The notes beneath the pieces were generated by a model that had not been told where the DNA came from, made no database searches, and worked only from the letters and a program-made list of their open reading frames with translations. A program made the translations under genes and the position numbers. Of a DNA stretch of 64,000 nt, positions 54,118 to 60,649 are shown piece after piece; the first letter of the stretch is position 1, and the number at the start of each line of letters is the position of its first letter. Source of the stretch: Paenibacillus sacheonensis (GTDB lineage: Bacteria > Bacillota > Bacilli > Paenibacillales > Paenibacillaceae); assembly GCF_009909195.1 (NCBI RefSeq), contig NZ_JAAAMU010000008.1:62001-126000 (forward strand), written 5' to 3'.

Positions 54118-54146
54118 AAAAGCCACCCCTTGTTAGGAGTGGCTTT
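54118..54146. terminator. Hairpin bounding the segregation-type locus
   Basis: AAAGCCACcCC pairs with GGaGTGGCTTT around a short loop. On the minus strand it ends TTTTGATTTC and may terminate a transcript that runs through parM, parR and the 10-bp repeats. Between 53901 and 54117 no other feature is seen. Confidence 0.6.
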
Positions 54147-54170
54147 GGATATTTCTTAGTTTTCGCAGTA

Positions 54171-54336
54171 TTATTTCGTACTACCGAGCGTTTCCGAGCA
54201 TTACTTTGCATCACTTGGTATTACTTCGTATAACTTAGAATTACCCGGCATCACCCGAATGAGTGTAGTCGCGTATTTCTAAATACCACTAAGTAATACC
54301 TAGTATGTCTAAGTAACGTTTAGGATTACAAAGTAT
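54171..54336. repeat. Candidate parC centromere: fifteen 10-bp repeats in two opposed blocks
   Basis: Nine consecutive 10-bp units (54171-54260) follow TTACTTnGTA, for example TTACTTTGCA, TCACTTGGTA and TTACTTCGTA. After 16 bp, six consecutive units (54277-54336) follow the reverse, TACnAAGTAA, for example CACTAAGTAA and GTCTAAGTAA. The ends differ most from the consensus. Direct repeats at helical pitch are how ParR proteins load on plasmid centromeres, and this array lies 92 bp past the ParR-like stop. Function is inferred from context. Confidence 0.75.
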
Positions 54337-54427
54337 TACTTGACAAAAAACCTCTTGTTATTCGGCATTACATGATGGCATTCAGTCACTGCTAGCATCC
54401 AATTCGTATAAGCCTAAAGGGCTGCAC

Positions 54428-54850
54428 TCAGCTCCATGCCTCGATATCCTCGTCATCGATTTCTTCCGCGGCAGGCTCGGAGGAAGTATCGGACCCTTCC
54501 GCCTCTTCGTCTGACTCTGCCTCCGCTTCCGCTGCTGCGTCGAACGCGTCGAATTCCGCGGTCTCTTCCGCGCCAGCGGCCAGCTGCTGGCGCGCCGACG
54601 CCACTACCGCGCGGCTGTCAGGCGGCTCCCCTGCCGCCCGAGCCCCCGGCCACTCCTGCAGGCCCGATCGTTCCATCGGGATATATGACTGCAAATTCCG
54701 GATGCCATGCAGCTTGATTTCGTTCTCCACCAAATACCGGAGGGAATCCATCAGGTTCGTTTGCGCATTCAACCACGCCATCACTTGCGGATCTTCCGTC
54801 TTCTTCGTCTTCAGGCTGATATTGCCGCCCGGAAGCTTGGTCTTCTTCAT
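54428..54850 (-). CDS. ParR-like small ribbon-helix-helix protein with acidic tail
   Basis: 140 residues. Residues 10-50 read as a ribbon-helix-helix unit: strand NISLKTKK, helix DPQVMAWLNAQTN, helix LMDSLRYLVENEIKL. This is the shape and position of ParR/Alp7R adaptors of Gram-positive actin-type plasmid systems. The tail (96-140) is very acidic (EAEAESDEEAEG... EIDDEDIEAW), as expected of a segment that touches the filament. It starts 55 bp after the ParM-like gene. I chose ATG 54850 (AGGTGA upstream); GTG 54862 and two ATGs lie just before. The family call rests on shape and neighbours, not strong identity. Confidence 0.7.
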   Translation of the reverse strand: MKKTKLPGGNISLKTKKTEDPQVMAWLNAQTNLMDSLRYLVENEIKLHGIRNLQSYIPMERSGLQEWPGARAAGEPPDSRAVVASARQQLAAGAEETAEFDAFDAAAEAEAESDEEAEGSDTSSEPAAEEIDDEDIEAWS

Positions 54851-54905
54851 CGCCATCATCACCTGCCGGTTCCATAGAACTTATATCCGTGCTTCGGCAT
54901 GCCCC

Positions 54906-56108
54906 TTATGCCGGCTGTTCCACATCCGCTTTATGCTTCAGCGCATCGAAGATTTTGCCCCGCACGAAAGCATCGAGTCCTGCCGCGTTCAGCTCGACGG
55001 CATAATCGGCCGGAATATACAGCAGCTTGATTTCCCGTTCATCGCAAAGGGCTTTCAAATTCGGATACAGCACGGTTCGCATGAGAATGCTGCCGCCTCC
55101 GTATACGCAGATCAGGTCGATCTCATTGCGCGCTTTGGTCAGCTGCTTCTTCACATGCTGCACGATCTGCTTCACTTGGCTCTCGAGCGGCCGGCGCAAG
55201 GTTTTGAGCGCCCTGGCATGGTACTTATGCTTCGGGTTCTTGAGCACGTCGCTGAAGAACTGCCTCGGGCTGTCCGGCAGATGAATCAGCCGATTGAACT
55301 CCTGCAACGCCTCTTCGATCGCATAACCCGCCCCATGGTGGCTGCCATGCACGAATTGCCGCAGGAAGCGATTGCCCTCCGTGATCGGATATTCCGTAGA
55401 GCCGTCTCCGATGTCGACATGCAGGATACGCTTATCCTTGAAGTAGCTGCCGTTGAACTTCTTCTCGATGCCGTATGCTGCCGAAAATTCGGCAAAGATG
55501 TCGCCTTCCCTCCAGTTCCCGGCCGCATCCTTCTGCAGCGTGAAAATAACCGGCGTCGCTTCGGGTACGACCTTCACGAACTGGAATACGATCTTCACCG
55601 CTACGCGCTGGATGCCGAGATGCACGGTCACATGATGCGAGCCGGAGGTAAACCGTTTCTCGAACTTGGCCGAGCTCTCATCCGTATGCTGCGTGACGGG
55701 CAGGGCGGTCGCCATGTCCACTTCGACGTCGATCTGAGGCGGAATCTGCTTCTCCTCCTCATACGCCTTCTGCACGGCCACGGCGGCAATCTGGGCCAGC
55801 GTATTCACGATCGGCAGGTCCATGTCGCTCTTGGAATCGATGCCGATTTGGATATTATCGATAATCTCGCCACTCTCCAGCGCGAATTTGCCGACGTAGT
55901 ACATGCCCGGTCTTGCCGCAGGCGAGTCCACCGTCACGACCAGATGGTCCTGCAGCTGCTTCACGAAGCCTTCCGGCGCCTGCTCTTCCCTCCACGGCAG
56001 CTCGTCCACCGGGCAATTCACATTGGGCTGTTGGATCAGTCTGCCGTCAATCACCAAGTCATGCTCGCTGTTACCGTTATCGTTACCTACGAAGAAATGA
56101 TAGTTCAT
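54906..56108 (-). CDS. ParM-like actin-fold segregation ATPase
   Basis: 400 residues with the actin-type nucleotide motifs: phosphate 1 FFVGNDNGNSEH (5-16), phosphate 2 VDIGDGSTEYP (231-241) and the adenosine motif VYGGGSILM (335-343). The layout fits ParM/Alp proteins that polymerise with ATP and push plasmid copies apart, rather than MreB or FtsA. The ATG at 56108 has AGGAGG upstream. Its promoter carries two of the 10-bp repeats. With the downstream ParR-like gene and repeat array it completes a three-part partition module. No replication gene is in view, so whether it sits on a chromosome or integrated plasmid is open. Confidence 0.88.
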   Translation of the reverse strand: MNYHFFVGNDNGNSEHDLVIDGRLIQQPNVNCPVDELPWREEQAPEGFVKQLQDHLVVTVDSPAARPGMYYVGKFALESGEIIDNIQIGIDSKSDMDLPIVNTLAQIAAVAVQKAYEEEKQIPPQIDVEVDMATALPVTQHTDESSAKFEKRFTSGSHHVTVHLGIQRVAVKIVFQFVKVVPEATPVIFTLQKDAAGNWREGDIFAEFSAAYGIEKKFNGSYFKDKRILHVDIGDGSTEYPITEGNRFLRQFVHGSHHGAGYAIEEALQEFNRLIHLPDSPRQFFSDVLKNPKHKYHARALKTLRRPLESQVKQIVQHVKKQLTKARNEIDLICVYGGGSILMRTVLYPNLKALCDEREIKLLYIPADYAVELNAAGLDAFVRGKIFDALKHKADVEQPA

Positions 56109-56187
56109 CGTTGCTTTCCTCCTGGAATTCGATTTTTGGTCAAGCCTTAGAGCCGCCAACGCACGTCACAACAACAAAAGCATTCCA

Positions 56188-56217
56188 TAGTATTACTTTG
56201 CCATACGAAGTGTTAGC
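56188..56217 (-). promoter_or_regulatory. parM promoter with two ParR-type half-sites in the spacer
   Basis: On the minus strand -35 TTGCTA (56212-56217) and -10 TAATAC (56188-56193) are 18 bp apart. The spacer is filled by TTACTTTGCC (56191-56200) and ATACGAAGTG (56201-56210), one forward and one reverse copy of the array unit. This predicts autorepression by the ParR-like protein. Confidence 0.6.
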
Positions 56218-56321
56218 AAGCATCATGCCAGAGTCCCACGCAACATTAGTTCTCTCTCATTTGAACTTGTCGGATATTGCGAAGCGGCGGCGTTCTTATG
56301 CGGATCCAGCGCGCAACGCAA

Positions 56322-56359: not shown

Positions 56360-59300
56360 TTAATCGGTAATCAAACCGGCGCGGAGCAGAAGCCTCCGCA
56401 CGATGACCGCCGTTTCTGCCCGAGTCATGTCGCGCTCAGGCGCGAGCTCCTCCCGGGAGCCTTGGATAAGCCCGTTCTTTACGGCCGCGGCGACCGCCTG
56501 ACCGGACCATGCGCGGACGGCCGCGCCGTCCGCAAATCCGGCCAATACGCCCTTGACCTCCGCTTCGTCCACATTCGCGGGCAGCCCGATCAGCGTCATC
56601 GTCCTATCGATCATGACGATCGCTTCCTCCCGCGTAATCGAGCCGGCGGGGCGGAACGTTCCGTCCGCATAGCCTTCAATCAGCCCGTATGCCACGGCTG
56701 CGGCGATGGCGCCGTCATACCATGCGCCGCGTCTCACATCCGAGAACGAAGCGGATGCCGCGGCCTCCGGCAAGCCGAGCGCGCGAACGAGAATGGCCGC
56801 AAATTCAGACCGCGTGATCGGCGCATCCGGATCGAAGTGCCGCTGGTCGACGCCGCCCGTCACCATTCTCGCCGCCATGTCGTTTACTTCGTCCTTGGCC
56901 CAGTGGGCCGCGACATCCGCGAATTGCACCTTGTTGGCAATCAGCGCAATGACGCCGTCGGTCAGACTATTCACGATGGCCGCCGCTTTCCCATCCCTGT
57001 CAATCACGAACCGCGTAGGTACGTGGCGCAGCGTCCCATCCGGATCCATGAGCGCTGCCGTAGCAAGGCCGTCCGCGCTCACCCCGTCCGGAAGCGGAAT
57101 TTCCCTCTCGACATAGGCATGAAAGGCAGGTGCTTCCAGCCTGTTGCCATGATAAAGAGTCGTTACCTCGAAGTCCACGGGGGAACCGCTCAGGGTCACT
57201 CCAGCTTTATGTGCTGCGTCCGTTAGCCCCGCAAGCTGGGCAGTATCGCTCTTGGCGATGCCGATTTGAACGGTTATATCCGACGGTTCTGGTCGCTGCT
57301 CGCCTAATGCCGCCGTCCAGGAATCGAATAGAAGCTGATCCAGAGGCAGCTTGCAGCTCCCGTTCCGGGTCTGGACGACTACGGTCCCTTGTTTGCCGGC
57401 AAGCCCGTTGACGACAGTCCCGTTTAACGCGACCGTTATTGCATCGACGTCCTGTTCGACGGCAACGATGACCTCCGGCTTTGCCGCCGTACGATCCAGC
57501 TGGGCCTGCAATGCAGCCGCATCCACGCTTACTGCCATAGAGGTTCGCTGATCTGACCTGGTCATGGACAGCGTACCGATTAAGTCATGCCTTTCCCCGT
57601 TCACGGTCACTTGCAATCCCATAGCCGTTTCCAATGAATACCCGCTAGATGGCGGGCTTGTCGGAACGTCTCCGGGATCATCGCCGCCATCGCCTTCGCC
57701 GTCGCCATCCGTTGGGCTCTCATCCGAATCGGGCGTCCACTTCGCGTACAACTCGACATCCTCCGCTCCCATGCTGAACGCAGCCCCTGCCGCATAGGGC
57801 GTTCCTTCCCCGTCCGCTTGGGTATTCCAGCCCGCGAACGTATACCCCGGCTTCGTCAGACCGCCGCCGCTAAGCACCGTTACCTGCACTCCCTGCTCGT
57901 ACGCGTTACCGTCGACAGGCGCTTCTCCCGTTCCGCCGTTGCTGTCGTACGTCACGCTGTACGTCGGATTCGTCGTCCACTTCGCATACAGCTCAACATT
58001 CGCCACTCCCATACTGAACGCAGCCCCCGCCGCATAGGGCGTTCCTGCTCCGTCCGCTTGGGTATTCCAGCCCGCGAACGTATACCCCGGCTTCGTCAGA
58101 CCGTCGCCGCTAAGCACCGTTACCTGCGCTCCCTGCTCGTACGCGTTACCGTCGACCGGCGCTTCTCCGATTCCGCCATTGCTGTCGTACCTCACGCTGT
58201 ACGTCGGATTCGTCGTCCACTTCGCGTACAACTCGACATCCCCCGCACCAATCGTGAACGTGGATCCCGCCGCATAGGGCGTTCCTTCCCCGTCCGCTTG
58301 GGTATTCCAGCCCGCGAACGTATACCCCGGCTTCGTCAGACCGCCGCCGCTAAGCACCGTTACCTGCGCTCCCTGCTCGTACGCGTTGCCGTCGACCGGC
58401 GCTTCTCCCGTTCCGCCATTGCTGTCGTACGTCACGCTGTACGTCGGATTCGTCGTCCACTTCGCATACAGCTCAACATTCGCCGCTCCCATGCTGAACG
58501 CAGCTCCCGCCGCATAGGCCGTTCCTTCCCCGTCCGCTTGGGTATTCCAGCCAGCGAACGTATAGCCCGGCTTCGTCAGACCGTCGCCGCTAAGCACCGT
58601 TACCTGCGTGCCCTGCTCGTACGCGTTGCCGTCGACAGGTGCTTCTCCCGTTCCGCTATTGCTGTCGTACGTCACGCTGTACGTCGGATTCGTCGTCCAC
58701 TTCGCATACAGCTCAACATTCGTCGCTCCCATGCTGAACGCAGCTCCCGCAGCATAGGCCGTTCCTTCCCCGTCCGCTTGGGTATTCCAGCCCGCGAACG
58801 TATACCCCGGCTTCGTCAGACCGTCGCCGCTAAGCACCGTTACCTGTGTGCCCTGCTCATACGCGTTGCCGTCGACAGGCGCTTCTCCCGTTCCGCCATT
58901 GCTGTCGTACGTCACGCCGTACGTCGGATTCGCCGTCCACTTCGCGTACAACTCGACATCCTCCGCACCAATCGTGAACGTGGATCCCGCCGCATAGGGC
59001 GTTCCTTCCCCGTCCGCTTGGGTATTCCACCCTGCGAACGTATACCCCGGCTTAGTCAGACCGCTGTCCCCAAGCACGGTCACCTGCTCGTTCTCGTAGT
59101 AGACATAATCGTCCGTCGGCACGTTCCCCGTGCCGCCATTGGCATGATAGGTGACGGCGTATGTCGGAATCGCGAGCGTTCGAACGGCTATTTTATCGTA
59201 AATGCTCTTCCGGCCATCCTTGTCCTTCACGATGACGGTGAAGTTGTAGGTCTGACCGTCATAGAGATCCGTGACTTGCTTCGTATCCATATCCGCCGTG

Positions 59301-60649
59301 TAGGTTCCGATCCGGACGCCGCCCGCTTCAACGGCGCTGACGGTCACCGCCGTCCGGCTGCTGATCTGGTAGACCTGGTATTGCAGCTCTGCCTGCTTGC
59401 TGAGATTGTCCGTCGCTCGCGCCCACGACAGCGTGACGCCGGTCTCCGTAATGTTGGCGGCCGTCAGCGCCGGATTCGCGATGGCAGGCGGCGTCACATC
59501 CACGCTCGCCGCGTTGCGAACAGGGATGCTGCGCGATTCTCTCGTGGTGTCGCCCAGCTCGCCGTATCCGTTATAGCCCCAAGCCCATATAGCCCCGCCC
59601 GACTGCATCGCGATGCCGTTGTACCCGCCGGCACCCAGGGAAACCACGTCCGTCAACCCGCTTACTTGCACCGGACTCAGCCTCGTCGACGTCGTCCCGT
59701 CGCCCAATTGGCCGTAATTATTAATTCCCCAACTCCAGACCGTCCCGTCGTCCTTCAGGGCATAGCTGAAATGCGTGCCGCCCGCAACGCTCTTCACATG
59801 GTCGATCCCGACCGCCTGCACGGGCGATACCCGGTTTACGGCGGTTCCGTCGCCCAGCGTTCCGTAGGTATTCCTGCCCCACGTCCAGACCGTCCCGTCG
59901 TCCTTCACCGCCATGCTGTGATGATCGCCCGCGGCGATCGCCTTCACGCCATCGATCGCCACTTGGTAAGGGACCGTACGGTCTGCGGACACGCCGCCTC
60001 CGGACTCCCCGTACGAATTTCGGCCCCACGCCCAGACCGTTCCGTCCGACTTCAGCGCCAGGCTGTGATACCCGGCATTCACAAGCGCCACGACGTTCGT
60101 CAACCCCGCTACCTGGACCGGCAATTGCCGCTGCGTCGTCGTCCCGTCGCCCAGCTCCCCGTTATCGTTGCGTCCCCATGCCCATACGGTGCCGTCGTTC
60201 TTGAGAGCGAGCACATGATAACCGAGACCGGTCGATATGGCCGTTACTCCGCTTATCCCCTTTACCTGTACCGGCGCCGCGCGATTCTCCAACGTGCCGT
60301 CGCCCAGCTGTCCGTTTTCGTTCAACCCCCATGCCCACAGGGTTCCATCTTCCTTCAGCGCGTACGTGCTCATAATGCTGGAAGCGATCTGCTTGACGCG
60401 GTCCAGCCCTTTGATCTGCACCGGCTTCGCCGAGTAGGTCCCCGAACTCGCGGCTAGCTGCCCTCTATCGTTGCGCCCCCACGCCCACACCGATCCGTCG
60501 CTCAGCAGCACGGTGCTGTGGTAATAACCCGTGGCCAGCTGCGGAGCCGTGAGATAGGCATCGGCATGCGCGAACTTCATGGGAGCCGCCGGAATAATCC
60601 CCCATAAAACAACAAGCGCGAGTATGATTTTGTTCAGTCGCATCGACAT
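56360..60649 (-). CDS. RCC1 / fibronectin / InlB-repeat / SLH surface protein
   Basis: 1429 residues. A signal peptide (~1-30) is followed by seven RCC1 repeats (~32-385; VWAWGRNDNGELGDG type), which would close into a seven-bladed propeller. Then a fibronectin-III-like domain (~395-495), six 80-residue InlB B-type (Flg_new) repeats (~497-975; KPGYTFAGWNTQADGEG), an acidic Pro/Asp linker, a beta-rich domain (~1000-1235) and three SLH domains to the end (FADVAAHWAKDEV; FSDVRRGAWYDGAI; GFADGAAVRAWSGQ). It is exported and held on the secondary cell-wall polymer. Its ligand is unknown. GGAGG is six bases before the ATG. It diverges from a MalT-like regulator. Confidence 0.93.
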   Translation of the reverse strand: MSMRLNKIILALVVLWGIIPAAPMKFAHADAYLTAPQLATGYYHSTVLLSDGSVWAWGRNDRGQLAASSGTYSAKPVQIKGLDRVKQIASSIMSTYALKEDGTLWAWGLNENGQLGDGTLENRAAPVQVKGISGVTAISTGLGYHVLALKNDGTVWAWGRNDNGELGDGTTTQRQLPVQVAGLTNVVALVNAGYHSLALKSDGTVWAWGRNSYGESGGGVSADRTVPYQVAIDGVKAIAAGDHHSMAVKDDGTVWTWGRNTYGTLGDGTAVNRVSPVQAVGIDHVKSVAGGTHFSYALKDDGTVWSWGINNYGQLGDGTTSTRLSPVQVSGLTDVVSLGAGGYNGIAMQSGGAIWAWGYNGYGELGDTTRESRSIPVRNAASVDVTPPAIANPALTAANITETGVTLSWARATDNLSKQAELQYQVYQISSRTAVTVSAVEAGGVRIGTYTADMDTKQVTDLYDGQTYNFTVIVKDKDGRKSIYDKIAVRTLAIPTYAVTYHANGGTGNVPTDDYVYYENEQVTVLGDSGLTKPGYTFAGWNTQADGEGTPYAAGSTFTIGAEDVELYAKWTANPTYGVTYDSNGGTGEAPVDGNAYEQGTQVTVLSGDGLTKPGYTFAGWNTQADGEGTAYAAGAAFSMGATNVELYAKWTTNPTYSVTYDSNSGTGEAPVDGNAYEQGTQVTVLSGDGLTKPGYTFAGWNTQADGEGTAYAAGAAFSMGAANVELYAKWTTNPTYSVTYDSNGGTGEAPVDGNAYEQGAQVTVLSGGGLTKPGYTFAGWNTQADGEGTPYAAGSTFTIGAGDVELYAKWTTNPTYSVRYDSNGGIGEAPVDGNAYEQGAQVTVLSGDGLTKPGYTFAGWNTQADGAGTPYAAGAAFSMGVANVELYAKWTTNPTYSVTYDSNGGTGEAPVDGNAYEQGVQVTVLSGGGLTKPGYTFAGWNTQADGEGTPYAAGAAFSMGAEDVELYAKWTPDSDESPTDGDGEGDGGDDPGDVPTSPPSSGYSLETAMGLQVTVNGERHDLIGTLSMTRSDQRTSMAVSVDAAALQAQLDRTAAKPEVIVAVEQDVDAITVALNGTVVNGLAGKQGTVVVQTRNGSCKLPLDQLLFDSWTAALGEQRPEPSDITVQIGIAKSDTAQLAGLTDAAHKAGVTLSGSPVDFEVTTLYHGNRLEAPAFHAYVEREIPLPDGVSADGLATAALMDPDGTLRHVPTRFVIDRDGKAAAIVNSLTDGVIALIANKVQFADVAAHWAKDEVNDMAARMVTGGVDQRHFDPDAPITRSEFAAILVRALGLPEAAASASFSDVRRGAWYDGAIAAAVAYGLIEGYADGTFRPAGSITREEAIVMIDRTMTLIGLPANVDEAEVKGVLAGFADGAAVRAWSGQAVAAAVKNGLIQGSREELAPERDMTRAETAVIVRRLLLRAGLITD
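57730..59165. repeat. Six 240-bp tandem DNA repeats inside the surface-protein gene
   Basis: The InlB-type protein repeats are encoded by 240-bp units that remain almost identical in DNA, including silent positions, over the central copies; the copy nearest the N-terminus is the most diverged. This suggests recent unequal exchange, and copy number may vary between strains. Confidence 0.85.

Follow-up and report, generated by a model that had tools for sequence, protein, structure and literature searches.

A chromosome-borne ParMRC-type cassette with a repeat array after parR, close to dnaA in Paenibacillus and related genera

Organization of the cassette

The window analyzed here, a stretch of 64 kb from the genome of Paenibacillus sacheonensis, carries on its minus strand (54119-56274) a compact cassette that runs from a leader through a parM-like gene, a parR-like gene and a repeat array to a terminator-like stem. 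The parM-like gene (54906-56108, ATG at 56108 and stop at 54906) encodes an actin-fold ATPase of 400 residues, and the parR-like gene (54428-54850, stop at 54428; 140 residues) begins with an ATG at 54850, 55 bp from the parM-like stop, with a GTG at 54862. The parC-like array of near-palindromic 10-bp units occupies 54161-54350 and is followed by a stem-loop of 12 pairs with a T-rich tail (54119-54146). Alignment of the leaders of 52 loci revealed two conserved features, the element AACAC..GTATGGCAAAGTAATAC (56190-56214) and, close to the upstream limit of what the loci share, the block TCCGACA...TGAGAGA (56253-56274). The gene pair and the array agree with the complete ParMRC-like module proposed in an initial annotation of this DNA, including the small acidic-tailed protein that it had placed 55 bp past the ATPase gene. 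The leader element, the terminator-like stem, the place near the origin and the probable transfer between genera did not figure in that annotation. The gene directly upstream of the cassette, also on the minus strand (56360-60649), encodes a large protein in which RCC1 repeats occur together with six List_Bact repeats and three SLH domains.

The ParM-like protein bears the signature of an actin-fold ATPase, since the stretches D10-x-G-N-S, D232-x-G-D-G and Y336-G-G-G-S, which we take to be the phosphate-1, phosphate-2 and adenosine motifs, are invariant in alignments of 24 close and 15 wider relatives, in line with the three nucleotide motifs noted in the initial annotation. Its Pfam values (0.001 for ALP_N and 0.003 for MreB-like_C) fall below the curated cut-off; the best values among 15 ParM-like members were 5.5e-6 and 6.7e-7, respectively, and E < 0.01 was reached in nine of the 15 for ALP_N and in 12 for MreB-like_C. 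Direct searches of Pfam, NCBIfam and PDB sequences returned sub-threshold or zero ParM or ParR matches for the two cassette proteins, and neither has a sequence match to solved ParM or ParR structures in the PDB. The AlphaFold model of the ParM-like protein is of low confidence (pLDDT 57, pTM 0.47), and its ten Foldseek matches with E ≤ 0.001, which comprise Alp7A, pCBH ParM, the archaeal Ta0583, Alp12 and R1 ParM, superpose poorly (TM ~0.4, rmsd 10-15 A). The models of both proteins were considered too weak a source of fine detail. Over 60 genomes, the ParM-like protein is nearly as conserved as DnaA, with mean pairwise identities of 80% and 83%, respectively.

Alignment of 29 ParR-like sequences showed conservation of the first 60 residues, a variable acidic linker and a conserved C-terminal EEIDDEDIEAWS tail, which is acidic and ends in D-E-D-I-E-A-W. 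The monomer model contains a confident helix at residues 21-48 and a short helix at 133-139; it has no beta strand, and no Pfam or PDB match supported a ribbon-helix-helix fold. Matches such as those to DUF6912 or an astrovirus capsid were dismissed because they fall in the acidic low-complexity part. By analogy, the N-terminal domain would be the DNA-binding head and the C-terminal tail the ParM-binding part.

The array is the strongest 10-bp-periodic stretch within the 64 kb. Mean identity at lags of 10, 20 and 30 over 54161-54350 was 0.486, compared with a mean of 0.266 (sd 0.019) and a maximum of 0.347 in 5000 dinucleotide shuffles, which confirms the 10-bp repeats described earlier and gives the locus tandem short repeats of the parC kind. 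The consensus of the units, GTAWTAC and three loosely conserved bp, is nearly palindromic, so that a site scores on either strand with an offset of three bases; a symmetrised unit model found 13 sites scoring above 3.0 at 54168-54339, and the phase of the array shifts by half a turn between 54248 and 54273. The initial annotation had read nine units facing six reversed ones, but the asymmetry of the units is weak, and a fixed unit orientation in two blocks was rejected; whether the blocks look opposed depends largely on the reading chosen for the centre base and the spacer. The parC of plasmid systems usually lies upstream of parM (PMC9426499, in the part of the article available), a rule that is not universal, and an engineered parC downstream of parR has been employed (PMC4911067, likewise available in part). 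Here the long array is downstream of parR, at the place already assigned to it in the initial annotation, and a short element is upstream. In the window's own genome, a three-unit pattern allowing up to three mismatches matched this array alone, with six hits over both strands against two for the control; the pattern is so strict that it misses the degenerate half of the window array, and weak arrays elsewhere in this genome are thus possible. A 41-bp DNA match was recorded on contig C42.

Relatives carrying the gene pair with no such repeats nearby had been named in advance as evidence against the proposed module, and they turned out to be the exception: at least four units occur within 320 bp downstream of the parR stop in 45 of 53 loci (52 relatives plus the window), and fewer than four in the other eight. 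Among these eight, L050, L073 and L078 have a unit cluster elsewhere nearby and L048 has three units, while scanning with the unit model found no convincing array near L057, L064, L070 and L074. Because these downstream regions also served to train the unit model, the site counts are not independent; training did not impose the 10-bp phasing, and unit pairs at exactly 10 bp averaged 2.77 per locus over the 53 loci, against 0.014 per spacing for spacings of 8, 9, 11 and 12 bp.

The element at 56190-56214 is the most conserved stretch of the leader; one unit within it matches the array model, and two further, degenerate units that keep its 10-bp phase were recognised by eye. The 200-bp leaders held on average 3.1 unit-model matches, compared with 1.3 after shuffling, and at least two strand-wise matches (approximately one palindromic site) were present in 51 of the 52 loci. 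This element is likely a ParR operator. Similarity in blastn comparisons starts 121-133 bp before the parM ATG in five of eight pairs from different groups and later in three, and the block at 56253-56274 may be a promoter or regulator site. The TCCGACA block lies ~145-166 bp before the window parM and reads TTCGACA in loci L035-L040 and TCCGACA in many others; it resembles what we assume to be a Spo0A box (0A-box), a lead to a possible sporulation or promoter link. Three terminator-like stems were found in the region, compared with 2.3 expected from shuffles, which makes the stem at 54119-54146 weak evidence by itself.

Distribution, plasmid relatives and probable movement between genera

A scan of species genomes recovered 53 related loci, 52 at 75-91% identity and one a decayed fragment (L085). 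They are distributed over Paenibacillus, Cohnella and Aneurinibacillus, and two come from genomes labelled Bacillus sp.; the scan employed exact peptide patterns of the query and thus favours close relatives. Any parM match was found in 80 of 394 family genomes, and apart from one decayed copy (G364) and one gene in pieces (G034) the matches split into those of at least 72% and those of at most 47% identity. In addition, two genomes of another family carry ParM-like proteins at 55-56%. The decayed copy belongs to one P. glycanilyticus strain. The presence of a match in 80 of 394 genomes, together with a decayed copy, indicates that the cassette is dispensable.

The whole-genome context of replication genes, which the initial annotation had suggested examining, places dnaA on the contig of the cassette, in line with the chromosome-like context that it had described. 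Of the three origins it had offered, a large plasmid is practically excluded, because dnaA and two ParB-family genes share this contig; a recently integrated plasmid is unsupported, since blastn over 13-kb stretches of eight pairs of loci from different groups found only the cassette in common; and a domesticated segregation locus is the best fit. The cassette is not plasmid-borne, and megablast against plasmids gave no match to it. Eleven carrier assemblies consist of a single contig, and in these there is no plasmid for the cassette to serve. No homolog was detected in the phage collection at E 0.01.

Among plasmid homologs of the ParM-like protein (best 20 of 103 records), one stood at 67% identity and 102 below 60%. 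Homologous ParM/StbA proteins (41-67%) are encoded by Paenibacillaceae plasmids, namely pTHECO01, plasmids of P. rhizovicinus and P. sonchi, and pBbsI of Brevibacillus brevis, in all of which ParR follows ParM and shares the core DS(I/L)RYL...NLQ with the cassette ParR. The D-I-E-A-W tail is kept in pBbsI and absent from the P. sonchi, pTHECO01 and P. rhizovicinus plasmids. Periodicity near these genes was assessed as the best of lags 7-24 against 200 single-base shuffles. Upstream of parM it reached 0.53 at 11 bp in the P. sonchi plasmid (0/200 shuffles as high) and 0.43 at 11 bp in pTHECO01 (1/200), in contrast to the 10-bp array after parR in the cassette; pBbsI showed a weak 0.41 at 17 bp (3/200), and the P. 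rhizovicinus plasmid, at 0.37, did not rise above shuffles (89/200). An 11-bp upstream array in all three plasmid relatives at 41-45% was accordingly discarded as wrong for P. rhizovicinus. Downstream of parR no periodicity stood out in any of the four (28-58 of 200 shuffles as high). The two loci at 55-56% from another family have periodic stretches upstream of parM, at 10 bp in L024 (0.53, 0/200 shuffles) and at 15 and 10 bp in L025 (0.50 and 0.46, 0/200), and the array may thus have changed sides within the lineage. The pBbsI locus, with 67% identity to chromosomal ParM, the same ParR tail and no 10-bp array seen, is a possible donor or escapee. P. rhizovicinus carries the chromosomal cassette on one contig (C1) and a 44%-identical plasmid ParM on another (C2), which offers a natural test of orthogonality.

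The DnaA tree of 60 genomes has one branch per genus code, and the ParM tree only partly so. In these quick trees (LG+G4), a single ParM clade was rejected by the AU test for genus groups g34 (p 1.4e-7) and g1 (p 3.8e-8), and the ParM of three g34 species (G361, G391 and G363) is nested in the g1 type. The conflict with DnaA suggests that the cassette probably moved between genera. Purely vertical inheritance was set aside, as neither g34 nor g1 forms one clade in ParM; hidden paralogy with losses is possible. Blastn between loci of different groups (eight pairs, 13-kb stretches) found only the cassette in common, over 1.2-1.8 kb. For example, the DNA common to the locus of G363 (L036) and that of G018 (L037) begins ~120 bp before parM, extends for 1.8 kb and ends within the array; no further similarity was detected over 13 kb at E 1e-5. 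Comparison of G361 with G001 and G018 found no called gene in common over a flank of 20-40 kb, with gene calling by longest open frames so crude that it missed the parR of G361 itself, while the flanks of G001 and G018 have many genes in common. In all three genomes parM lies 56-60 kb from dnaA (60 kb in G361) in the same orientation. A conserved gene neighbourhood across genera was rejected; the NDH-like gene was seen beside parM in groups g34 and g4 only. After its probable transfer between genera, the cassette is thus still found near the origin although its neighbours differ, which could reflect targeted insertion, retention of origin-proximal copies only, or fast neighbour turnover around a fixed place.

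Position relative to dnaA

The position of parM was tallied in the 67 genomes of the family and order sets, the window genome among them, whose copy reaches 70% identity or more. The tally leaves out G034 (parM in three pieces), G094 (dnaA not sought), the decayed G364, the copies of G054, G057 and G047 (46-56% identity) and hits below 50%; G063 duplicates the G383 genome and G064 the G360 genome. In 42 of the 67 genomes parM and dnaA share a contig, and in the other 25 they are on different contigs and are not placeable. In all 42, parM is upstream of dnaA on the opposite strand, on the same side and transcribed away from the origin, at a distance of 27-358 kb in 41 and of 739 kb in one genome of another family (G036). 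Four further named genomes have parM at 160, 37, 81 and 52 kb from dnaA on the same side. Of 13 single-contig chromosomes, in which the position is free of bias from contig breaks, 12 have parM within 305 kb.

For 18 chromosomes or large scaffolds, parM was within 360 kb on that side in 17, compared with 22 of 35 control orthologs of five neighbour genes (Fisher p 0.012), with 12 of 23 when the RlmN-like gene was omitted (p 0.003) and with 24 of 37 when a YitT-like gene was included (p 0.016); these p-values are a guide only, because the 360-kb limit was chosen after the distances were known and related genomes are not independent. Control orthologs had at least 63% identity and lower matches were dropped, such as epimerase-like genes at 48-54% and a MerR-like gene at 54% in G032; the YitT-like control, which lies beside the cassette in G386 and G388, was dropped as well. 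The names of the control genes (Fnr, epimerase, TPP enzyme, RlmN-like, NDH-like and YitT-like) are our presumptive assignments from sequence.

No role in segregation is known for the RlmN-like gene, yet it alone is origin-proximal in 10 of 12 genomes, so that conserved gene order in the region accounts in part for where parM lies. The order of the two genes differs, parM being nearer the origin than the RlmN-like gene in G001, G004 and G008 and farther from it in G009, G024, G032, G343, G349, G386 and G388, which indicates that one moved relative to the other. Selection for the position of the cassette is thus likely but not proven, and given the RlmN-like control the position was not accepted as full proof of it.

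In each of 14 genomes examined, two ParB-family genes, presumably parB and noc, lie ~8-11 kb from dnaA, and the cassette would therefore supplement ParABS rather than replace it. Four genomes, among them that of the window, carry a second full-strength DnaA-domain gene (open frame of 449-462 aa) apart from the one at the origin, at G000:C43:331610-332095, G008:C1:6799151-6799636, G384:C33 and G367:C2.

Possible role of the cassette and relation to known systems

An actin-fold ATPase, a small adaptor and tandem repeats are the components of Alp7ARC of pLS32, and Alp7A and pCBH ParM are the best fold matches of the low-confidence ParM-like model. The same architecture, with tandem repeats of 10-20 bp, characterizes the plasmid ParMRC systems of R1, pB171, pSK41 and pCW3 in the available part of PMC9426499; unlike these, the present cassette is chromosomal, has its main array after parR and lacks a sequence match to solved ParM or ParR. 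ParABS/Noc is likewise an origin-proximal chromosomal system for positioning DNA, but it works with a ParA ATPase and ParB/parS and no actin filament.

Chromosome-encoded ParMs were published in 2025 (JBC; PMC12270681), with Dh-cParM1 of Desulfitobacterium hafniense and Cb-cParM of Clostridium botulinum as examples; the portion of that article available describes filaments and shows no role. The present cassette, a ParM homolog with parR on the chromosome conserved in its lineage, resembles these cParMR pairs, which are also highly conserved within a lineage, some of whose carriers were reported without plasmids, and beside which ParA and ParB are also present (PMC12270681, same portion). There, the palindromic repeats of Cb-cparC are bound by ParR, and a figure legend places the Clostridium cparC after cParR while the text has it upstream. 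There are also differences: Dh-cParM1 clusters are syntenic within one genus, whereas the Paenibacillus-type cassette spans genera with tree conflict, and the same portion of the article found no conserved cparC among Clostridium strains, whereas the cassette has a conserved array after parR, besides its conserved leader element and origin-proximal place. The words Paenibacillus, dnaA and terminus are absent from the main text of PMC12270681, and oriC appears only in the title of a reference. The literature searched on chromosomal ParM, with thin coverage of subscription journals, contained no description of the Paenibacillus family. Chromosomal ParM is thus a known kind, and its origin-linked placement was not found in the literature searched.

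Our favoured reading, at a probability of roughly 0.57, is that a ParMRC-type cassette has been domesticated on the chromosome and acts on the origin region of the chromosome that carries it. By analogy with ParMRC systems, ParR dimers would use their N-terminal domain to coat the 10-bp array, the conserved C-terminal tail would hold or track the ends of ParM filaments, and ATP-driven filaments would push sister origin regions apart or anchor them, while ParR at the leader element would probably repress its own operon. The origin-proximal place suggests that the cassette may help in moving or holding the chromosome itself, as an addition to the ParB/Noc machinery. A more specific proposal, which we advance tentatively and at less than even odds, is a second, actin-based system of origin segregation or anchoring in Paenibacillaceae, namely a mobile ParMRC of ~2 kb that passes between genera and is retained only after landing on the left arm close to the origin. 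On this proposal it would be the first ParMRC with the chromosome as its natural cargo.

The conserved leader element points to autoregulation, and the available portion of PMC12270681 leaves the roles of chromosomal ParMs open, both of which would suit a chromosomal system whose filaments have a job other than segregation, be it cytoskeletal, regulatory or in sporulation, and whose array serves mainly for ParR titration or autoregulation. We regard such a system as unlikely, because a long phased array apart from the leader element is unneeded for autoregulation and its retention argues for a DNA cargo. Similarly improbable is a selfish or defensive role, in which the chromosomal centromere and ParR would destabilise incoming plasmids with a related parC by centromere-based incompatibility, or the module would hitchhike, positioned by regional inheritance alone. 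Patchy presence, the ParM tree conflict, the coexistence in P. rhizovicinus of the chromosomal cassette and the 44%-identical plasmid copy, the RlmN-like control staying in the same region and the incompatibility of C. perfringens plasmids set by ParR specificity (PMC9426499, available part) are all compatible with it; the plasmid relatives compared, however, either differ in the ParR tail or show no visible 10-bp array, and 11-bp repeats lie upstream of parM in two of the four, which makes cross-binding doubtful, and one-sided placement after relocation is not explained by this role itself. The least probable explanation is that the cassette was left behind by the integration of a plasmid or element, persists by chance and is on its way to being lost, as homology to plasmid ParMs and the decayed copy in one P. 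glycanilyticus strain might suggest, since ParM is about as conserved as DnaA, the ParR tail and array are maintained across genera and no other gene beside the cassette is common to the groups.

The cassette would also represent plasmid-type partition machinery adopted by chromosomes, its repeats arranged differently from those of the plasmid relatives. In this widespread family, the intact centromere-like array at a near-constant origin-proximal place provides a concrete hypothesis for Paenibacillus and its relatives, namely that origin movement or anchoring may be driven by actin-like filaments.
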